Assembly: GCA_017619375.1 (NCBI GenBank)
Contig: JAFZSL010000076.1
Location: 1-54,636, forward strand
Reading direction: 5' to 3'
From: Prevotella sp.
Lineage (GTDB): Bacteria > Bacteroidota > Bacteroidia > Bacteroidales > Bacteroidaceae
DNA: 54,636 nucleotides
Shown here: in pieces, positions 1 to 54,484 of the stretch
How the letters are laid out: each line of letters opens with the position of its first letter
How positions within the stretch are numbered: the first letter of the stretch is position 1
Notes under the pieces: generated by a model
Databases searched by the model: none
What the model saw: the letters and a program-made list of their open reading frames with translations, nothing else
What the model was told of the DNA's origin: nothing
Made by a program: the position numbers and the translations under genes

Positions 1-140
1 AGCCAGATAGCGTCCATGAAGGTCTATGGAGACTGATTTTCGCCATCTCTGGCTCGGTAAGTTAACGACCAACACTGGAAAACAAAACCAGTCGGAGGTC
101 TATGTCGAATCAAATTTATGCCACTTTTTCAAGTGGGCTC

Positions 141-168
141 AAAATTGAAAATTGAAAATTGAAGATTG
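141..168. repeat. heptamer tandem array, 4 units
   Basis: Four 7-base units, three AAAATTG and one AAGATTG, lie head to tail. The same heptamer family recurs in degenerate form at 3588-3615 and, as 11 units, inside the dockerin gene at 35321-35397. Confidence 0.8.
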
Positions 169-262
169 ACCTGCGGTCAAAGTTGCTCACGCTCGGCAGA
201 CTACAAGCAAGCTTGGTCTGCTCTCGCTTAATCGCAACTTTGAAATTTGTAGACTTTAGGGC

Positions 263-289
263 AAAAAAAAAGGAGTACCGCTGTACTCC
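263..289 (-). terminator. intrinsic terminator of sRNA candidate copy 1
   Basis: A 7-bp GC-rich stem with a 4-base loop is followed on the minus strand by nine T residues, a textbook Rho-independent terminator. Confidence 0.8.
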
Positions 290-327
290 AACCTTTGTTA
301 ACCTTAAATCTAATACTATGAAAAACA
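263..327 (-). ncRNA. candidate small RNA, copy 1 of a two-copy family
   Basis: On the minus strand a promoter-like site is followed about 10 bases later by a 43-base block (295-337, which includes part of the -7 element) identical to 31724-31766. A strong hairpin (GGAGTAC, 4-base loop, GTACTCC, 272-289) and a run of nine T (263-271) come next. A transcript of about 65 nt is predicted, with no room for a protein. The arrangement of conserved 5' part plus terminator stem is typical of a standalone sRNA. Start and end are predicted from motifs only. Confidence 0.6.
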
Positions 328-332
328 CGTTG

Positions 333-363
333 CAAAGATAATCAGTATTCTGACATCTTGCAA
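333..363 (-). promoter_or_regulatory. promoter of sRNA candidate copy 1
   Basis: Read on the minus strand, TTG (361-363), 20 bases, then TATCTTTG (333-340), close to the Bacteroidales TTTG-N19-TAnnTTTG consensus. Copy 2 has the same TTG-N20-TAnCTTTG arrangement. Confidence 0.6.
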
Positions 364-462
364 GCATTTGGGGTAAAATTTATCATTTTTTAAACAATTC
401 TTGACCTAAATCAAGTGATTGTGCTCGCCAACAACGTATTTTTATGTGATTAAACAGTATTT

Positions 463-3435
463 TTATACCTTTGGCAACAGCACCACGCCCTCCTGTTTCT
501 TGCCATCCATCATGATGCGCAGAGGTTTGTCAAATCTGACATGCCTGACAAAGTTGGTCTCCTCGACGGCAGGCATGGCATCGAGGACTTCCTTCCGCCA
601 TACGCCCTCTCCGTTGAAGGTGTTGACAGTGAAGTACCCCACGCCGAAACTGGTGAGGTTTTGGAAGAAATGGGTGCCCTGACTGGGGTCGATGCGGTAG
701 TTTTTCAGTCCCGCCTCCACGATGAGTTTCGAAGCACTGATGTGCGGCCATTTCACAGGGATGCCCAGCCAATAGTCGCTGGAGCCCCACCTTCCAGGTC
801 CCACGAGGACATAGTTACCTCCCTCCTGGAGGAATTTACGGTTGATGCGCTCTATCTCGTTGGCTATGGTGGGGTTGTTGGACGCTGTGAAGTTGTCGTC
901 GGTCTTCACATACACCACGTCGGTGATTTCCTCGTTGATGCCATGGCCCAGCGACATGTGCGAGCGGAGGAGGCATTCCTCGTCATCGATGGTGGAGAGG
1001 TCGGTTTCGAGCATCTGCTTGGAATCGACGATAGGCCTGATTTGCAAGAGATGGAAATCGAGGGTGTTGTCGACGATGTTGCAGGCGAACTCTATCTCCA
1101 CGGGGCGGTGCATGCCCTCGGAGCCGAACTTCATGGCCATCTGCATGATTTCGGGGAAGGGGAAGACGTTCTGTTGGAGTACTCCAGCGAAGGAAATCAC
1201 CTTGCGCCCGCCTTCGTAGATGCCATCCCTGATGATTTGGTCGTAGGGGTCGTAGGTGGAAGCGATGAAGTTGAGCGACTTGTCCTTGTCGGCCTCTTTC
1301 ACGCGGAGTTTGAGGATGTTGAACCCGTCGTCGACCTTGAAATCGGTGGCGGCGTTCTCCATGTCGAGGGCATAGAACTTGGTCTGTGTCTCCTTGAGCG
1401 CCGTGTCCATCTCGCTGGTTTGCAGCACCTGGTTGGGGTGGTAGGGACTCACCCTCAGCGTCTGCCCCCCGTCGACGATGTATTTCCCCAGTCCCAGGGC
1501 GAGGCTTGCGATGCCGTCCTCGGCCTTCTCGTCACCGATGGGGTAATAGTTGAGCGACCTGAGCACGCCACTGATGTTGGGATAGAAATGGCTGCCATAC
1601 TGCCTTCCCACCACTTCTTGCAAGATGACGGCCATCTTCTCAGAGTCGATGACATTGCTGGTGGCCGTCATATAGGCTTTGGAGTCGCGGTAAAAGACCG
1701 ATGCATAGACGCCCTTGATGGCGCAGGCGAGCATACGCAGCATATCGTATTTGTCCTCCATGTATGGAATCATATAGGTGGAGTAGATGCCGGCGAATGG
1801 TTGGTAATGGGCGTCCTCAAGGAGCGACGACGACCTCACGGCGATGGGGCTTCTGGTCGCCTCGAAGAATGTGAAGAAGTCGGCGATGAGGTTGTCGGGC
1901 AGTTGTGCCTTGAGGAAATGCGAGAGGATGACCTCGTCGGAAGCATCGCTCAGCGCTATCCGATACAAGTTGTTGGCGTCCATGAACCTGTCGAAGATGT
2001 CGGTGCACAGCACCACGGTCTTCGGAATGGAGACGGTGGCGTTGTCGAAGGCGTTGAACTCCGGGTGGCGCTTGACGATATTGTCAAGGAAGGCGAGGCC
2101 ACGGCCCTTGCCTCCCAGAGACCCTTCTCCGATCCTGGCGAAGTGGGCGTACTTGTCATATTTCCCCCTGTCGAAGACGGCCACCACGCCCACGTTCTTC
2201 ATCTTGCGGTATTTCACGATGGCCTCGAAAATGATTTGGCGGTGCGCATCCACATCCTTGAGTTTGTGCCATGTGACATGCTTGAGGAACTGCGAGACGG
2301 GGAAGATGGCCCTCGCACAGAGCCAGCGGCTCACATGGTTGCGCGAGATGTGGTAGAGCATCGACTCCTTGGGAATATTGAACACATTGTCCTGCAACTC
2401 CTTGAGGCTTCTCACCCTCATCACCTCATGCTTGGTGGAGGGGTCGCGGAAGATGAAGTCGCCGAATCCCAAGTGCTCTGCGAGGAGCCTCCGCAAGTCG
2501 ATGTTCATCTTCTTGGAGTTCTTGTCCACATAGTGGAAGCCCTCCTCCATCGCCTTCGCCTTGTTCGCGTCCTCCGCACTTTGCATGATGAGCGGCACGA
2601 ACTCATCACGGGAACGTATCTCCCGAAGGAATTTGAACCCCGCTTCCGGATCCTTCACCCCGTCCTTGGGGAAACGCACGTCGCAGATGATGCCCTGCGT
2701 GTTGTCGGCATATTTCTCATAATAAGCCATGGCTTCCTCGTAGGTCCTGGCCAGCAACACCTTTGGCCTTCCACGCTTCCGTTGTGCCGCGGTGTGTGGG
2801 TTGAGTGCCTCGGTGGAAAACCGTTGGCTTTGCAGGAGGATGTAACTGTAGAGGTTGGGCAGGACAGAGGAATAAAACCGGATGTTATCTTCCACAAGGA
2901 GTATCATCTGCACGCCGGCCTCTCGCATGTCGTGCTCGATGTTCATCTTGTCCTCGAGGAGTTTGATGATGGAGAGGATGAGGTTGGTGTCACCCAACCA
3001 GCAGAAGACATAGTCGAAAATGGACATGTCCTCGTCCTGGATGCGCTTGGTGATGCCATGGGAGAAGGGGGTGAGCACCACGCATGGCAGCGCAGGGAAG
3101 TCGGCCTTGATGTCTCGCGCCACGCTGAAGGCGTCGTTGTCGGCTATGCCGGGCATGCAGATGACGAGGTCGATGGCCGTGGTGGAGAGCACGTCACGTG
3201 CCTCCTCGGTGGTGCACACCTGCGTGAACGACGGGGGGTAGCGCATCCCCAGTTCCATGTATTCGTCGAAAATCTTCTCGTCCACCCTTCCATCATCCTC
3301 CAGCATGAAGGCATCGTAGGGATTGGCCACGATGAGCACGTTGAAGATGCGGTGTGTCATCAGGTTGACGAACGACACGTCCTTCAGATAGAACTTGGTC
3401 CACTCCTGTGGTATGATATTGTCCATATTAGTCAA
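463..3435 (-). CDS. PEP/pyruvate-binding ATP-grasp protein with two N-terminal receiver-like domains
   Basis: 990 residues. Residues about 28-160 and 175-320 look like response-regulator receiver folds. The second keeps the acidic pair (EDN, 182-184), a candidate phospho-acceptor Asp (ICDVRF, D252) and a Lys (K305). The first has Cys at the acceptor position (VICMP) and is probably degenerate. From about 435 a pyruvate phosphate dikinase N-terminal (PEP/pyruvate-binding) domain follows, with a glycine-rich GEGSLGGKGRG loop. The phospho-histidine swivel domain and PEP-binding barrel of true PEP synthase or PPDK are missing: no TSHAA-like motif is seen and the protein ends after the ATP-grasp part. 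Database labels of phosphoenolpyruvate synthase would therefore overstate the function. Related Bacteroidota proteins are annotated as PEP/pyruvate-binding. A regulated phosphotransfer role is an inference. Confidence 0.75.
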   Translation of the reverse strand: MTNMDNIIPQEWTKFYLKDVSFVNLMTHRIFNVLIVANPYDAFMLEDDGRVDEKIFDEYMELGMRYPPSFTQVCTTEEARDVLSTTAIDLVICMPGIADNDAFSVARDIKADFPALPCVVLTPFSHGITKRIQDEDMSIFDYVFCWLGDTNLILSIIKLLEDKMNIEHDMREAGVQMILLVEDNIRFYSSVLPNLYSYILLQSQRFSTEALNPHTAAQRKRGRPKVLLARTYEEAMAYYEKYADNTQGIICDVRFPKDGVKDPEAGFKFLREIRSRDEFVPLIMQSAEDANKAKAMEEGFHYVDKNSKKMNIDLRRLLAEHLGFGDFIFRDPSTKHEVMRVRSLKELQDNVFNIPKESMLYHISRNHVSRWLCARAIFPVSQFLKHVTWHKLKDVDAHRQIIFEAIVKYRKMKNVGVVAVFDRGKYDKYAHFARIGEGSLGGKGRGLAFLDNIVKRHPEFNAFDNATVSIPKTVVLCTDIFDRFMDANNLYRIALSDASDEVILSHFLKAQLPDNLIADFFTFFEATRSPIAVRSSSLLEDAHYQPFAGIYSTYMIPYMEDKYDMLRMLACAIKGVYASVFYRDSKAYMTATSNVIDSEKMAVILQEVVGRQYGSHFYPNISGVLRSLNYYPIGDEKAEDGIASLALGLGKYIVDGGQTLRVSPYHPNQVLQTSEMDTALKETQTKFYALDMENAATDFKVDDGFNILKLRVKEADKDKSLNFIASTYDPYDQIIRDGIYEGGRKVISFAGVLQQNVFPFPEIMQMAMKFGSEGMHRPVEIEFACNIVDNTLDFHLLQIRPIVDSKQMLETDLSTIDDEECLLRSHMSLGHGINEEITDVVYVKTDDNFTASNNPTIANEIERINRKFLQEGGNYVLVGPGRWGSSDYWLGIPVKWPHISASKLIVEAGLKNYRIDPSQGTHFFQNLTSFGVGYFTVNTFNGEGVWRKEVLDAMPAVEETNFVRHVRFDKPLRIMMDGKKQEGVVLLPKV

Positions 3436-3587
3436 TTTTGATGTTCTTATTTCATATCGTCATCTCCTCCTGTGAGCCCATTCACACCACCATGCAGGCA
3501 TACGCCAAGGAAGTCATGGCATTGTGTGTGCAAAAATAACCAATATCTTTCACACCACAAAGCACATTGGACAGAACAATCGGATTT

Positions 3588-3615
3588 TTCAACCTTCAAT
3601 CTTCATTTTTCAATT
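3588..3615. repeat. degenerate heptamer array upstream of a secreted protein gene
   Basis: Four 7-base units (TTCAACC, TTCAATC, TTCATTT, TTCAATT), the complementary form of the heptamer family at 141-168 and 35321-35397. It lies directly upstream of the promoter-like element of the next gene. Confidence 0.6.
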
Positions 3616-3623
3616 ATTTGCAT

Positions 3624-3631
3624 TATATTTG
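3624..3631 (+). promoter_or_regulatory. -7 promoter element
   Basis: TATATTTG matches the Bacteroidales -7 element and lies about 30 bases before the chosen start codon. No clear -33 TTTG is seen, since that position falls in the heptamer array. Confidence 0.5.
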
Positions 3632-3661
3632 CAATCGTACAACCATTCACAACCAAAGCCG

Positions 3662-4351
3662 ATGATGACACTGAAAAAACTATTGCCACTGATGCTCATG
3701 CTGCTTCCCGCTCTTTCGACAATGGCGCAGGAAGAGGATTGGGAATCCGTGGATGATTTCAACAACGTGAAGGACATCGTTGAACGATGGACGGAGAAAA
3801 GCCTCCTGGTGGAGAACACCTTCAAGCAAGCACCTGTGAGAAATTTCGCCATGGCTTTCTGCAAGCACTACCAGCAATACGCCCCCAACAAGGCCATGGT
3901 CGATTACCTGAAAAAACCAGGGAATTACACCTGGGAGGAAAAAGGCTATTATAGCGTCGAAGACATCCGCAACGGCTATGTCAAATGTGACATGGGCGGG
4001 CAATTCGACCATATGACGGAAATCTGCTATTGGAAACGGAAGAACGGGCACGCCCTGGTCGGCATCCTGATGCAAATGGGACGTGAAGGCGAGAGAGCCG
4101 ACAACGCCTTGCTCTTCTATGACTACGACCCCAAGACACGCATGCTGAAACCCGATGTCAAGGTTTGGAACACCGTCTGCCAATACATAGGGAGTCATGA
4201 AGGCTCATGCTTTGCATACCTGCCGAAAGAAGGGAAAAACATCGACTTCACCATGGTCACATGGACCATGGAGAACGATTTTGAGTACGATGACTACACT
4301 CTGAAATGGACGGGCGACTCCTTCATCGAAGAAAAGACAAAAAGAGATTGA
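3662..4351 (+). CDS. secreted protein of unknown function
   Basis: 229 residues from the chosen start. The N-terminus is a clear signal peptide (two Lys, then a Leu/Met-rich stretch ending ALSTMAQ), so the protein should be exported to the periplasm or cell surface. The open frame extends 46 codons upstream, but that extension overlaps the promoter and repeat, and the signal peptide fixes the start here. The mature part is acidic with many aromatic residues, no Cys cluster and no domain I recognise. It faces the helix-hairpin-helix gene convergently. Secretion is well supported; function is unknown. Confidence 0.75.
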   Translation: MMTLKKLLPLMLMLLPALSTMAQEEDWESVDDFNNVKDIVERWTEKSLLVENTFKQAPVRNFAMAFCKHYQQYAPNKAMVDYLKKPGNYTWEEKGYYSVEDIRNGYVKCDMGGQFDHMTEICYWKRKNGHALVGILMQMGREGERADNALLFYDYDPKTRMLKPDVKVWNTVCQYIGSHEGSCFAYLPKEGKNIDFTMVTWTMENDFEYDDYTLKWTGDSFIEEKTKRD

Positions 4352-49441: not shown

Positions 49442-49783
49442 CTATTGGTGAATTGACTCAATTGCCTGAAGGATGGACTGGCGAACCCACCTGACAGCAT
49501 AAGCAATGAACTTGATATCGTGGCTAGCATCATACTCCATGGCACCCTTCCTCAAGCCATCCGTTCCAACTTCAATCAGTTCCATGAGTGTCAGCCCACG
49601 ATTCTTATACTGGTTGGCAATGCTGACAATAAACCGCATACTGCCTTTTTCCAGTTGTCTCATCTCATCACAGTCCGTACCCTTCTCCTGCACAGCCTTG
49701 CATAACGCTTTCTCCTCATCGGCAGAAAGCAACGGCATGCGACAGATTTCATTCAGGATTTCATCCAATCTTTCTTTCTCCAT
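49442..49783 (-). CDS. truncated sigma-70 (region 1.2-2 only)
   Basis: 113 residues from MEKERLDEILNE. The N-terminal part resembles sigma region 1.2 (MPLLSADEEKALCKAVQEKG), and the rest region 2 (FIVSIANQYKNRGLTLMELIEVGTDGLRKGAMEYD..IKFIAYAVRWVRQSILQAI), like housekeeping RpoD of the phylum. It stops two to three residues after region 2.4, with no region 3 or 4, so it cannot contact a -35-type element. The frame is intact and starts cleanly, so it is unlikely to be recent decay. It may bind core RNA polymerase as a decoy or partner factor; this is inferred. Confidence 0.75.
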   Translation of the reverse strand: MEKERLDEILNEICRMPLLSADEEKALCKAVQEKGTDCDEMRQLEKGSMRFIVSIANQYKNRGLTLMELIEVGTDGLRKGAMEYDASHDIKFIAYAVRWVRQSILQAIESIHQ

Positions 49784-49892
49784 TTTCTTGTTTTGTTGTT
49801 GACGATGATAATATAGGAACATTTGGAGAAAAATTCAAAAATCACCTATAAAAAAACACGTAAACCATGAAGTTTTTTATTTCTCCTATTAT

Positions 49893-50037: not shown

Positions 50038-50784
50038 ATGAAAAGAGGAAAAAGGATATGCAACACTCTCAAGGAGGTGCGCATGCAAGTGGCGAAGGCT
50101 AACGACATCAAATATGCACCCACGGAATGCCACCACGAGGGTGACTGCGCCGGCACCTGCCCGAAATGCGAGTCCGAGGTGCGCTGGCTCGAACAACAGT
50201 TGCAGTTGCGCCGACAATTAGGCAAGGCCGTGGCCGTGGTGGGGGTGAGCATGGGACTGGCCGCCATCACGGCGTGTGATGGCAAATTACCATATCGGAC
50301 TGCCGGTGAAGTGGATGTTATCCCCGACACCTTGTCGGAAGTCAACACCGCTGCTGACCCCTGTGCGACAGACACGAACACTGTCCCCGACACCTTGTTG
50401 ACAATAAGGCAAGCTGCCGGAACAGATAGCATAGAAATCGAAGGCAAAATTGAACGGGGCATGCCAGAACCTATTTACACATCTTCTTACCCTGGTGGCA
50501 AGCAAGCCCTCCTTAACTTTTTGAATGAAAACACAAAATATCCCGAGCAGGCGGTGAAAGACAACATTGAAGGAATGGTGGTGGTGAGATTTGAAGTCGC
50601 ATCAGACGGCAACATCCACAATCCACACATTTTTCTGGGTGTCCATCCTCTACTCGACGCAGAAGCACTGCGGGTGGTCAACCTCATGCCCAAATGGAAT
50701 GCTGGGGACCAAGGAACATTCAACCTTCCCATCAGTTTCAAGTTGGATAAACACCACTCCCCTACCCTGAAATTCGAAATATAA
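50038..50784 (+). CDS. TonB C-terminal domain protein with Cys-rich N-terminus
   Basis: 248 residues. The first 60 residues are cytoplasmic-like with a metal-binding pattern (ECHHEGDCAGTCPKCESEVRWLE: CHH, C, CPKC), followed by one hydrophobic segment (AVAVVGVSMGLAAITAC) that crosses the inner membrane. A flexible periplasmic linker leads to a TonB C-terminal domain (GGKQALLNFLNENTKYPEQAVKDNIEGMVVVRFEVASDGNI). Such energy transducers pair with ExbB/ExbD and SusC-like receptors; none is adjacent. The Cys-rich cytoplasmic part could sense metal or redox state; this is an inference. Confidence 0.8.
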   Translation: MKRGKRICNTLKEVRMQVAKANDIKYAPTECHHEGDCAGTCPKCESEVRWLEQQLQLRRQLGKAVAVVGVSMGLAAITACDGKLPYRTAGEVDVIPDTLSEVNTAADPCATDTNTVPDTLLTIRQAAGTDSIEIEGKIERGMPEPIYTSSYPGGKQALLNFLNENTKYPEQAVKDNIEGMVVVRFEVASDGNIHNPHIFLGVHPLLDAEALRVVNLMPKWNAGDQGTFNLPISFKLDKHHSPTLKFEI

Positions 50785-52540: not shown

Positions 52541-53623
52541 CTATAAGAAATCCTTCTCGTCCAGTCTTTTCCCGCAATCGGGACAATATTTGTATGACTT
52601 GAAGATGACCGTGCCGCACTGGCTACATCGGTATTCGTGGTCTAGATGCTGCAGTCTATACATCAAGACGCGGTAGGTTTCTGTATCCCTACTTTTCACG
52701 AAGTCGAACCCGAGTTTCTTGACAAGTTTGATGGTGTTGTCGGCCAGGATGCGGTCGTATTCTTTCTCACCCTCGGTGAGACGCGCATAAGGCACCAGGT
52801 CGGGATGCTGTTTGCGCTTGTCGTCCCTTTCCGGTCCCCAGGTCCACCCTTCGGCCATCCTTGCCTTCGACCACACCTCGTGCGTGTTTTCCGCTATGGC
52901 CTCGCGCAAATCTATCAAGTCATCCGGAATACTGATGTTGTCCACATTGATGGGGACAGGTAGATATTCAGCCTCTGAAGGGCTCACGACGACCATGTAG
53001 TGCGATGACTCGCGCCACGCCTCCGCGAAGCGGCTGTAGGGACATTCTTCGCAAGGATTACCCGTTGCCGGGTCGTAAATGCGCACCCGGTCCTTGCCGA
53101 CGGCAAGGACGGTCACGGCGTGGAAGTCGCCATCCTCCCTCTTCTTGCCATAAAGCACGATGTTGTCGACCACCACGATGACGTCAGCCCGCTTCTCCAA
53201 CGCCGTTTCAAGGTCGGCGAAAGTGGCATCGTAACGCCTTGACACTTGCAAACCCTTGTCCTCGAGGAGACGTCCCATGTGATGCAGCGGAGTGCCCTTG
53301 TCTCGCAGCCATCTGTTCTGCAAGGCCTGTTTGGAAAGGCTGGCCCTGTCCACTTCGATTCCTCTTCGGGCCAAGATCCATTCTTCGCATTGCAAGTCGC
53401 ACAAGTGCCCCTCGCTCATGGCGGCCATCTTTGAAATGGGAAGGATGGGATGGCAAAAGGCCTTCTCTTCCAACTCCTCATCTACACGCTCAGAGATGGA
53501 AAGAACCGACTGTAACTCAGCACTGTCGCCCAGCACCTTGAGCATCATGTCCATTTCCTCAGCAGAGACGTTTCCTTCCAAGAAGGCGGCCATCTGCTCG
53601 TCTGTAATCCTATACTTTTCCAT
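52541..53623 (-). CDS. ECF-linked protein: anti-sigma-like N-terminus, C39-like, RyR and zinc-ribbon domains
   Basis: 360 residues, no membrane segment. Residues 1-60 (ITDEQMAAFLEGNVSAEEMDMML..) look like the N-terminal helices of anti-sigma or zinc-finger anti-sigma proteins but without Cys/His ligands. Residues 75-215 resemble a C39-type cysteine peptidase: Cys at 75/79 (HLCDLQCEEWIL), His168 (DGDFHAVTVL) and Asp184 (IYDPATG). Residues 236-308 match the RyR domain of ryanodine receptors (ENTHEVWSKARMAEGWTWGPERDD..). The C-terminus is a zinc ribbon, C333/C336/C347/C350 (CSQC...CPDC). It is encoded one base after an ECF sigma gene, so it is most likely that factor's regulator. Domain calls are from pattern recognition. 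Confidence 0.8.
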   Translation of the reverse strand: MEKYRITDEQMAAFLEGNVSAEEMDMMLKVLGDSAELQSVLSISERVDEELEEKAFCHPILPISKMAAMSEGHLCDLQCEEWILARRGIEVDRASLSKQALQNRWLRDKGTPLHHMGRLLEDKGLQVSRRYDATFADLETALEKRADVIVVVDNIVLYGKKREDGDFHAVTVLAVGKDRVRIYDPATGNPCEECPYSRFAEAWRESSHYMVVVSPSEAEYLPVPINVDNISIPDDLIDLREAIAENTHEVWSKARMAEGWTWGPERDDKRKQHPDLVPYARLTEGEKEYDRILADNTIKLVKKLGFDFVKSRDTETYRVLMYRLQHLDHEYRCSQCGTVIFKSYKYCPDCGKRLDEKDFL

Positions 53624-53624
53624 A

Positions 53625-54227
53625 TTACTTTTCTTTTAATGCAACTTTAGACAAGGCACTGATTGCGCGTTTCTTGATGTTGTACAAGTTGGCCACGGTG
53701 ATTCCCATCTCCTCAGCAAGGGACTCGGGTGGCACATCTTCGAGAACGAGTTTTCTAATAACAAAGACATATCGCTCGTTCTTCATGGACATGAAAAGGC
53801 GTTCCAAATCCATCCGTGCGTCGGTATGTGCCTCCAAGTCGGAGGTGCCTTCGTCTTTCGTGGTTTCATTGTAAGGAGGCAAGCCGCCGTTGATATCTAT
53901 CACATGATCACGTTTTCTGATGAAATATCTTATGGCGACCACCTTGATCCAATAGAATAAAGATGAACGGAACTCAAACTCCCTCAACTTTCTACAGTCA
54001 TTGGCAACGAGAAAGAGATATAACTCATTGACAAATTCGTCATAATCCACAGGATAAGAGAAAACACATTTGATGATACTAATGATGAGAGGCCGGCATT
54101 TCACAAAGAAGAAATCCTGTGTGATGCGGTTGTCACGATTGATAAGTCCTTGAACGATTTCCTGGTCTGTCATTCCACATCGGTTTTTAGTTGTTGAAGA
54201 CTGTCTGTCTTTTGCCGTTTTCGGCAT
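53625..54227 (-). CDS. ECF-type RNA polymerase sigma factor
   Basis: 200 residues from MPKTAKDRQSST. Region 2 is recognisable (YDEFVNELYLFLVANDCRKLREFEFRSSLFYWIKVVAIRYFIRKRDH) and region 4 as a helix-turn-helix (LEDVPPESLAEEMGITVANLYNIKKRAISALSK). The linker between them is acidic (NETTKDEGTSDLEAH). Seventeen in-frame codons upstream are rejected, because they lie in the promoter repeat and the promoter would then be inside the gene. It is transcribed from an 88-base repeat promoter cluster and immediately precedes the RyR protein gene. Confidence 0.88.
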   Translation of the reverse strand: MPKTAKDRQSSTTKNRCGMTDQEIVQGLINRDNRITQDFFFVKCRPLIISIIKCVFSYPVDYDEFVNELYLFLVANDCRKLREFEFRSSLFYWIKVVAIRYFIRKRDHVIDINGGLPPYNETTKDEGTSDLEAHTDARMDLERLFMSMKNERYVFVIRKLVLEDVPPESLAEEMGITVANLYNIKKRAISALSKVALKEK

Positions 54228-54242
54228 GGTCTCATTGGCTTT

Positions 54243-54484
54243 GCAAAGATAATGAAAACCGAGAGCAATGCAAAGCAAAAGACGAAGTTTTTGCTTTCAT
54301 TCCCGAGGTGCATCTTATCTTCGCCGTCAGGCAAAGATAATGAAAACCGAGTGCAATGCAAAGCAAAAGACGAAGTTTTTGCTTTCATTGCCGAGGTGCA
54401 TCTTATCTTCGCCGTTAGGCAAAGATAATGAAAACCGAGTGCAATGCAAAGCAAAAGACGAAGTTTTTGCTTTCATTCCCGAGT
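54243..54484 (-). repeat. 88-base tandem repeats, each with a consensus promoter
   Basis: Two full units (54243-54330, 54331-54418) and a 66-base partial third (54419-54484), differing at about three positions. On the minus strand each contains TTTG-N19-TATCTTTG: -33/-7 at 54271-54274/54244-54251, 54359-54362/54332-54339 and 54447-54450/54420-54427. Each also carries a hairpin (AAAGCAAAA with TTTTGCTTT, for example 54272-54280 and 54289-54297) over the -33. They sit directly upstream of the ECF sigma gene and would give three parallel start sites; the nearest gives a leader of only about ten nt. Repeats of this kind are common in Prevotella, but I cannot name a family. Confidence 0.88.
54244..54274 (-). 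promoter_or_regulatory. proximal consensus promoter of the ECF sigma gene
   Basis: TTTG (54271-54274), exactly 19 bases, TATCTTTG (54244-54251), 17 bases before the chosen ATG at 54227. It is the copy closest to the gene; the two further copies are 88 and 176 bases upstream. Confidence 0.85.

Follow-up and report, generated by a model that had tools for sequence, protein, structure and literature searches.

Class I anti-sigma factors such as ChrR, RseA, RsiW and RskA are encoded directly after their sigma factor and have a helical N-terminus, four helices of which clamp regions 2 and 4 of the sigma factor. Known sigma/anti-sigma pairs show a distance correlation of 0.82, compared to 0.5–0.6 for negative controls, and the Hx3Cx2C zinc motif is optional in this class (PMC7406223). 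RyR domains occur as repeats within animal calcium channels and as a stand-alone protein in Bacteroides thetaiotaomicron (3nrt, 6uag). A 2026 preprint describes phage RyR-domain proteins of the RyDEP/sponge type, which bind or cleave 2′/3′cADPR, the immune signals of Thoeris (PMC13232231). Six of the eight phage homologues assayed there bound cADPR signals, those assayed besides RyDEP exhibited no cleavage despite strong conservation, and H75, W78, H100 and D117 were reported as the ligand residues of RyDEP; a role of cADPR at animal RyR calcium channels is also raised there and is still open (PMC13232231). In Thoeris, the TIR protein that makes the signal is encoded together with its effector. 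To our knowledge, the bacterial proteins so far known to read immune signals of the cADPR type act as killing effectors. A partial literature search yielded no RyR-bearing anti-sigma factor; the accessible parts of PMC7016017 contained nothing on bacterial RyR systems, those of PMC7159879 none of the terms sigma, RyR or C39, and those of PMC11722364 mentioned an ECF sigma factor solely within a reference title.

In this study, a gene pair was analysed that lies near the end of a 54,636-nucleotide stretch of Prevotella sp. DNA (GCA_017619375.1, contig JAFZSL010000076.1), the whole of which is called the window in the following. The pair encodes a sigma factor and a predicted control protein whose RyR domain is of the family with which phages capture ADP-ribose immune signals, which suggests, without proving it, that this rumen-type bacterium possesses a transcription switch hearing an immune alarm. 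Its features are:

53625..54173, minus strand: gene for an ECF-type sigma factor, 182 codons counted from Met19 (TIGR02937; start from relatives)
52541..53623, minus strand: soluble regulator, predicted anti-sigma factor, 360 residues (open frame, domain matches, relatives)
53459..53623, minus strand: anti-sigma-like N-terminal part, residues 1–55 (weak zf-HC2/RseA_N matches in relatives; sigma-linked members)
52979..53440, minus strand: C39-like domain, residues 62–215, with Cys75, His168 and Asp184 (Pfam matches of the family, 3erv profile, residue table)
52700..52966, minus strand: RyR domain, residues 220–308, with H248, W251, H273 and D290 (PF02026, residue spacing)
52562..52636, minus strand: C-terminal zinc ribbon, residues 330–354 (Zn_ribbon_3, E 7e-5, below cut-off)
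54244..54251, minus strand: TATCTTTG, promoter-like -7 element (likeness to TAnnTTTG; copies also at 54332 and 54420)
54243..54483, no strand: tandem repeat upstream of the sigma factor gene, 88-base unit, 2.7 copies

Organization of the locus and architecture of the regulator

Both genes are located on the minus strand with one base between them and the sigma factor gene upstream, just where an earlier note on this DNA had placed them. That note had let the sigma factor gene begin at 54227, up to which its open frame with an ATG extends. As the relatives open with MTDQ or similar, however, translation probably starts at Met19 (54173). The sigma factor passes TIGR02937 narrowly (43.8 bits, cut-off 42.9, E 2e-11, residues 39–194), and this similarity to regions 2 and 4 in a short protein assigns it to the ECF group; a Pfam search with the same protein at E up to 1 gave nothing. 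PADLOC profiles at E up to 1 matched neither the sigma factor nor the regulator. The contig ends with the window, 409 bases past 54227, and with it the visible flank beyond the sigma factor gene.

As the maximum mean hydropathy of the regulator in 19-residue windows is 0.9, no membrane helix is evident. This agrees with the earlier description of a soluble protein composed of an anti-sigma-like N-terminus, a C39-like domain, a RyR domain and a zinc ribbon, the latter being represented by a CxxC pair in only seven of 32 RyR-bearing family members. A structure prediction, which had been proposed as a check of the C39-like and RyR folds, spoke neither for nor against them: the folding alignment comprised just four rows and the model was therefore poor (pLDDT 48.3, pTM 0.34). 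Foldseek with this model retrieved bacterial and animal RyR structures as well as the BtrH_N-type CtaG at TM 0.23, hits that lend weak support at best, and helices were modelled, at pLDDT 48, at residues 8–15, 21–32, 35–54 and 62–69.

Distribution of the family and pairing with the sigma factor

A search of genome contigs yielded 11 loci, of which three (L002–L004, from Prevotella or Prevotellaceae MAGs) were full-length and eight contained RyR only. The L004 protein shares 71% identity with the regulator of the window. With the own genome counted, matches were present in 44 of 299 genomes of the genus and in 32 of 393 genomes of the order, five others of which exhibited the full layout (L074–L078). 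At the level of the phylum seven of 395 genomes had a match, and among the matches listed only the own genome had the full layout; the RyR domain of the regulator is also the sole RyR match of this genome at E up to 0.001. For comparison, 41 regulators were used: alignment A1 contributed 29, and 12 were chosen among the 30 loci that the survey of the order had yielded.

Three of them (L060, L063, L064) were left out of the pairing count, as their contigs stop 134–227 bases upstream of the regulator. Among the remaining 38, all 32 members with the N-terminal part have an adjacent upstream sigma factor gene (gap -38 to +25 bases), compared to none of the six members without it (L054, L059, L068, L069, L070, L101). 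The N-terminal part was found in 31 cases by a profile from the A1 rows and in L095 by the Hx3Cx2C motif. Fisher's exact test gave p = 3.6e-7 for this first count, p = 2.3e-6 after removal of L101 and p = 1.2e-5 with L101 scored as sigma-linked, all three values ignoring kinship; the loci of the family are kin, and the pairing counts, like the TIR counts given below, are thus non-independent. L101 is the nearest thing to an exception from the pairing rule: in a wider stretch, a related sigma factor gene was seen 1.7 kb upstream, with two frames intervening. The conserved linkage in relatives, which the earlier note had proposed to check, is supported by the genus and order surveys as well as by this neighbourhood count.

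Sequence profiles of anti-sigma factors matched the family weakly (at E up to 0.1, zf-HC2 in eight of 29 members, best E 0.002; RseA_N in six of 29, best E 0.025), and the regulator of the window had no anti-sigma profile match in Pfam at E up to 1. The Hx3Cx2C motif is absent from it and present in the distant members L095 and L115. The distances of the N-terminal part correlate with those of the sigma factor at 0.81, close to the literature value for known pairs, followed by the C39 part with 0.76 (32 pairs each) and the RyR domain with 0.54 (28 RyR-bearing pairs), all values being without control for the species tree. The regulator shares gene position, a putatively helical N-terminus and co-divergence with class I anti-sigma factors, as distant members of its family do the zinc motif; it differs from them by its C39-like and RyR domains, by the lack of the zinc motif in most members and by the weak profiles. 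Taken together, the comparison makes it very probable that the regulator is an anti-sigma factor. The sigma/anti-sigma module is real and conserved, and its sensor is likely one for nucleotides.

The RyR domain and its putative ligand

The assignment of the RyR domain is robust (PF02026, residues 220–308, E 2.5e-29, 101.8 bits, cut-off 27.4), and 27 of the 29 members searched at E up to 0.1 contained RyR. Its fold family is shared with the B. thetaiotaomicron protein (59% identity to 3nrt over 90 aligned columns) and the animal repeats, although the former stands alone and the latter are channel parts, unlike the regulator. All four RyDEP-type ligand residues are present in the window, with H248, W251, H273 and D290 having exactly the spacing (+3, +25, +42) of H75, W78, H100 and D117 in RyDEP (PMC13232231). 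In contrast to these phage proteins, the regulator is bacterial, is fused to anti-sigma-like and C39-like parts and adjoins a sigma factor gene, and its activity is putative. Among the 32 RyR-bearing members, H248 is conserved in 31, W251 in 32, H273 in 14 and D290 in 31. The dyad positions H248 and D290 are Gln and Asn in L004, which has thereby lost both dyad residues and kept the sigma pair.

As most of the phage homologues assayed bound the signals, none besides RyDEP cleaved them and the dyad of L004 is replaced, binding of a nucleotide by the RyR domain appears better supported than its cleavage. Structures of human RyR3 repeats carry AMP-PCP, ADP or ATP in their titles. The phage and human RyR domains together with the conserved residues narrow the ligand, which the earlier note had left as some small molecule, towards ADP-ribose or adenine nucleotides, and the chances that it is an ADP-ribose-type nucleotide may be regarded as about even. 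Missed at that time were the TIR, SIR2-TIR, PrsW, AAA, channel and dynamin neighbours of the relatives.

The C39-like domain

Taken alone, the regulator of the window matched C39 only as DUF3335 (E 0.045, 13.7 bits, cut-off 25), and it misses the Peptidase C39 cut-off. Evidence for the domain comes from the family: at E up to 0.1, Peptidase_C39 matched 13 of 29 members (best E 1.9e-6) and Peptidase_C39_2 nine (best E 2.1e-8), the cut-off of the latter being passed by the relatives L091 and L096. A family profile of the C39 part furthermore matches the solved C39-like peptidase 3erv (E 3.3e-5). The similarity to such peptidases and to BtrH_N/AziU3-type proteins comprises this profile likeness and the Cys, His and Asp-or-Asn positions; the regulator differs from them in lacking a transporter fusion, and is a putative peptidase only.

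Cys79, which the earlier note had proposed as part of a plausible catalytic set, was rejected as the catalytic residue. It is Ser or Ala in seven of 41 relatives, and it is Cys75 that lies opposite the cysteine of the GCEVTSL motif of 3erv, albeit in a weak first segment of the alignment. Across the 41 regulators Cys75 is kept in 37, Cys79 in 34, His168 in 38 and Asp or Asn184 in 39, so that the catalytic-type cysteine is likely Cys75. The set of Cys75, His168 and Asp or Asn184 is complete in all 35 anti-sigma-bearing members and in two of the six without the anti-sigma part (L054, L101). This pattern hints that the C39-like domain matters for the control of the sigma factor, but release of the sigma factor driven by this domain is doubtful. 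What stands of the earlier reading is hence a soluble sigma/anti-sigma pair with a putatively ligand-sensing RyR domain, while its catalytic Cys79 does not.

Genomic neighbourhood of the relatives

The neighbourhood of TIR genes was counted in 24 genomes of the genus with 27 family loci and 77 TIR_2 matches. A TIR gene lies within 5 kb of 12 of the 27 loci, compared to 0.24 expected, and within 10 kb of 15, whereas none of 150 sigma70_r2 control genes (the best-scoring 150 of 389, hence a non-random choice) had one within 30 kb. In 12 genomes of the order, TIR was found within 5 kb at three of 12 loci (0.07 expected). The genome of L004 has one TIR_2 match only, about 4 kb from the sigma-regulator pair; since L121 and L004 overlap, one contig carries both. 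Two of the TIR neighbours pass the ThsB_TIR cut-off and one is a SIR2-TIR fusion. At the other 15 loci of the genus, more than half of the total, the 5-kb range is free of TIR. The own genome has two TIR_2 matches, both on other contigs and thus not linked to the pair of the window, and no linked TIR was found for L044 and L045. By anti-sigma part, nine of the 22 loci with it are TIR-linked within 5 kb (G018, G025, G034, G118, G129, G137, G161, G264, G280), as are three of the five without it (G022, G087, G116). TIR within 5 kb accompanies 15 of 32 members with a RyR tail and one of nine without, which is not significant (Fisher, p = 0.066).

Some relatives hence resemble Thoeris in having TIR genes beside them. 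The window itself differs, as no TIR signal maker is linked to the pair, and the proposed output of the regulator is transcription rather than a killing effector. The TIR link may also reflect residence in defence-type islands instead of direct signalling. Other Pfam neighbours of the relatives comprise a PrsW protease, an AAA ATPase, a kinase-AAA fusion, TerB, an MscS-type channel, an M48 peptidase and dynamin. Stand-alone RyR genes within about 2 kb of TIR matches (G161:C17, G535:C23, G326:C14, G611:C21; L161-type pairs), with no listed sigma pair nearby, are hinting at a wider RyR-TIR link.

Several further observations were made in these neighbourhoods. PrsW is a protease of anti-sigma factors. 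PrsW-family genes lie near the regulators at L047, L054, L056, L066 and L069 (the L054 copy with PF13367, E 3.9e-39); for most regulators such a neighbour is at odds with their soluble look. A recurrent protein at eight loci looks RCK/TrkA-like, its representative at L048 being without Pfam support, and the RyR-adjacent protein of L010 matched Slo-like_RCK only (E 0.039). At L012, the gene of an nSTAND1 NTPase that contains WG repeats (15–3980) has a stand-alone RyR gene (3977–4276) directly behind it.

RyR-less members carry other tails. In L091 and L100 the tail comprises CarboxypepD_reg and a segment that looks membrane-like by eye, and L096, L098, L101 and L115 have acidic tails and adjoining dynamin-like genes (L096 by Pfam, the others by eye), possibly representing a sister system with another sensor. 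With its differing tails, the family gives the impression of a shared anti-sigma plus C39 chassis whose sensors can be exchanged.

Possible function and alternative explanations

The reading we favour, at roughly balanced odds, is a soluble class-I-type anti-sigma factor whose RyR domain senses an ADP-ribose-type nucleotide and thereupon frees the sigma factor. The N-terminal helices would keep the sigma factor inactive, and the RyR domain would serve as sensor, most likely for an isomer of cyclic ADP-ribose that TIR-domain NADases produce in infection or some other conflict. Once the ligand is bound, and perhaps after the C39-like domain has clipped its own protein, the sigma factor would be free to turn on a gene set. 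The domains, the pairing of N-terminus and sigma factor, the ligand-type residues and the TIR genes beside many relatives are supported by comparison; the ligand, the direction of control, the mechanism of release, the role of the C39-like domain and the target genes are what we infer. Conceivable, if short of even chances, is a broader picture for the Bacteroidota, in which TIR-made cyclic ADP-ribose acts through RyR anti-sigma factors on dedicated ECF sigma factors, so that infection or cleavage of NAD would reprogramme transcription, RyR being one of several tails and the others serving conflict genes such as dynamins. If true, a sigma factor switch on a cADPR-type signal would connect immunity and gene regulation in bacteria, and with the regulator a cellular receptor would be based on the same RyR domain that animal calcium channels contain; the conserved RyR pocket residues and Cys75 make the sensing idea directly testable.

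Against the favoured reading speak the conservation of H273 in just 14 of 32 members, the missing dyad of the TIR-linked L004, the absence of linked TIR at the window, L044 and L045 and of nearby TIR at 15 of 27 loci, and the three of 12 TIR-linked loci without anti-sigma part, along with the weak anti-sigma profiles, the pLDDT 48 model and the ATP/ADP binding of RyR3. Part of this would be accommodated if the same sigma/anti-sigma pair used RyR to gauge energy or metabolism by reading ATP, ADP or NAD, with no immune signal involved: the nucleotides held by the human RyR3 repeats, the pair of the window and its two close relatives without linked TIR, and the variable phosphate contact H273 are all compatible with this idea. 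It appears rather unlikely, given that TIR is enriched beside relatives and that H248 and D290 are each kept in 31 of 32 members.

The conservation of these two catalytic-dyad positions could instead indicate a RyDEP-like enzyme which destroys the signal and so ends or limits the response without any sensing. The tested homologues besides RyDEP did not cleave (PMC13232231), L004 keeps its pair without both residues, and the sigma partner itself points to signalling, which makes an enzyme of this kind improbable. Very improbable is also a regulator that is a partner or activator of the sigma factor, merely co-translated and with a superficial N-terminal likeness to anti-sigma factors. The weakness of the profiles (none for the window protein) and the related sigma factor gene upstream of L101, which has no N-terminal part, would suit it; the pairing of the N-terminal part with an adjacent sigma factor, Hx3Cx2C in L095 and L115 and the co-divergence being strongest for this very part argue against it.

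Upstream of the pair, TATCTTTG resembles TAnnTTTG, which we take to be the -7 element of Bacteroidota housekeeping promoters, and its three minus-strand copies in the 88-base repeat place three promoter-like elements in a row. Among the stretches upstream of 28 sigma factor genes inspected by eye, no shared ECF-type motif was seen as a candidate for self-activation by the sigma factor, and a TAnnTTTG-like element precedes several stand-alone sigma factor genes, that of the window included. Such a housekeeping-type element would fit a sigma-regulator pair that is synthesized beforehand and kept inactive until needed.

Two further genes of the window are worth recording. At 49442–49822 on the minus strand, a frame of 126 residues matches sigma-70 in none but regions 1.2 and 2 (PF04542, E 4.9e-8; PF00140, E 1.6e-4), and thus encodes a short, primary-sigma-like protein without the later regions. 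At 50038–50784 on the plus strand, a protein with a TonB C-terminal domain (E 6e-13) exhibits, by eye, a cysteine-rich stretch near its N-terminus.
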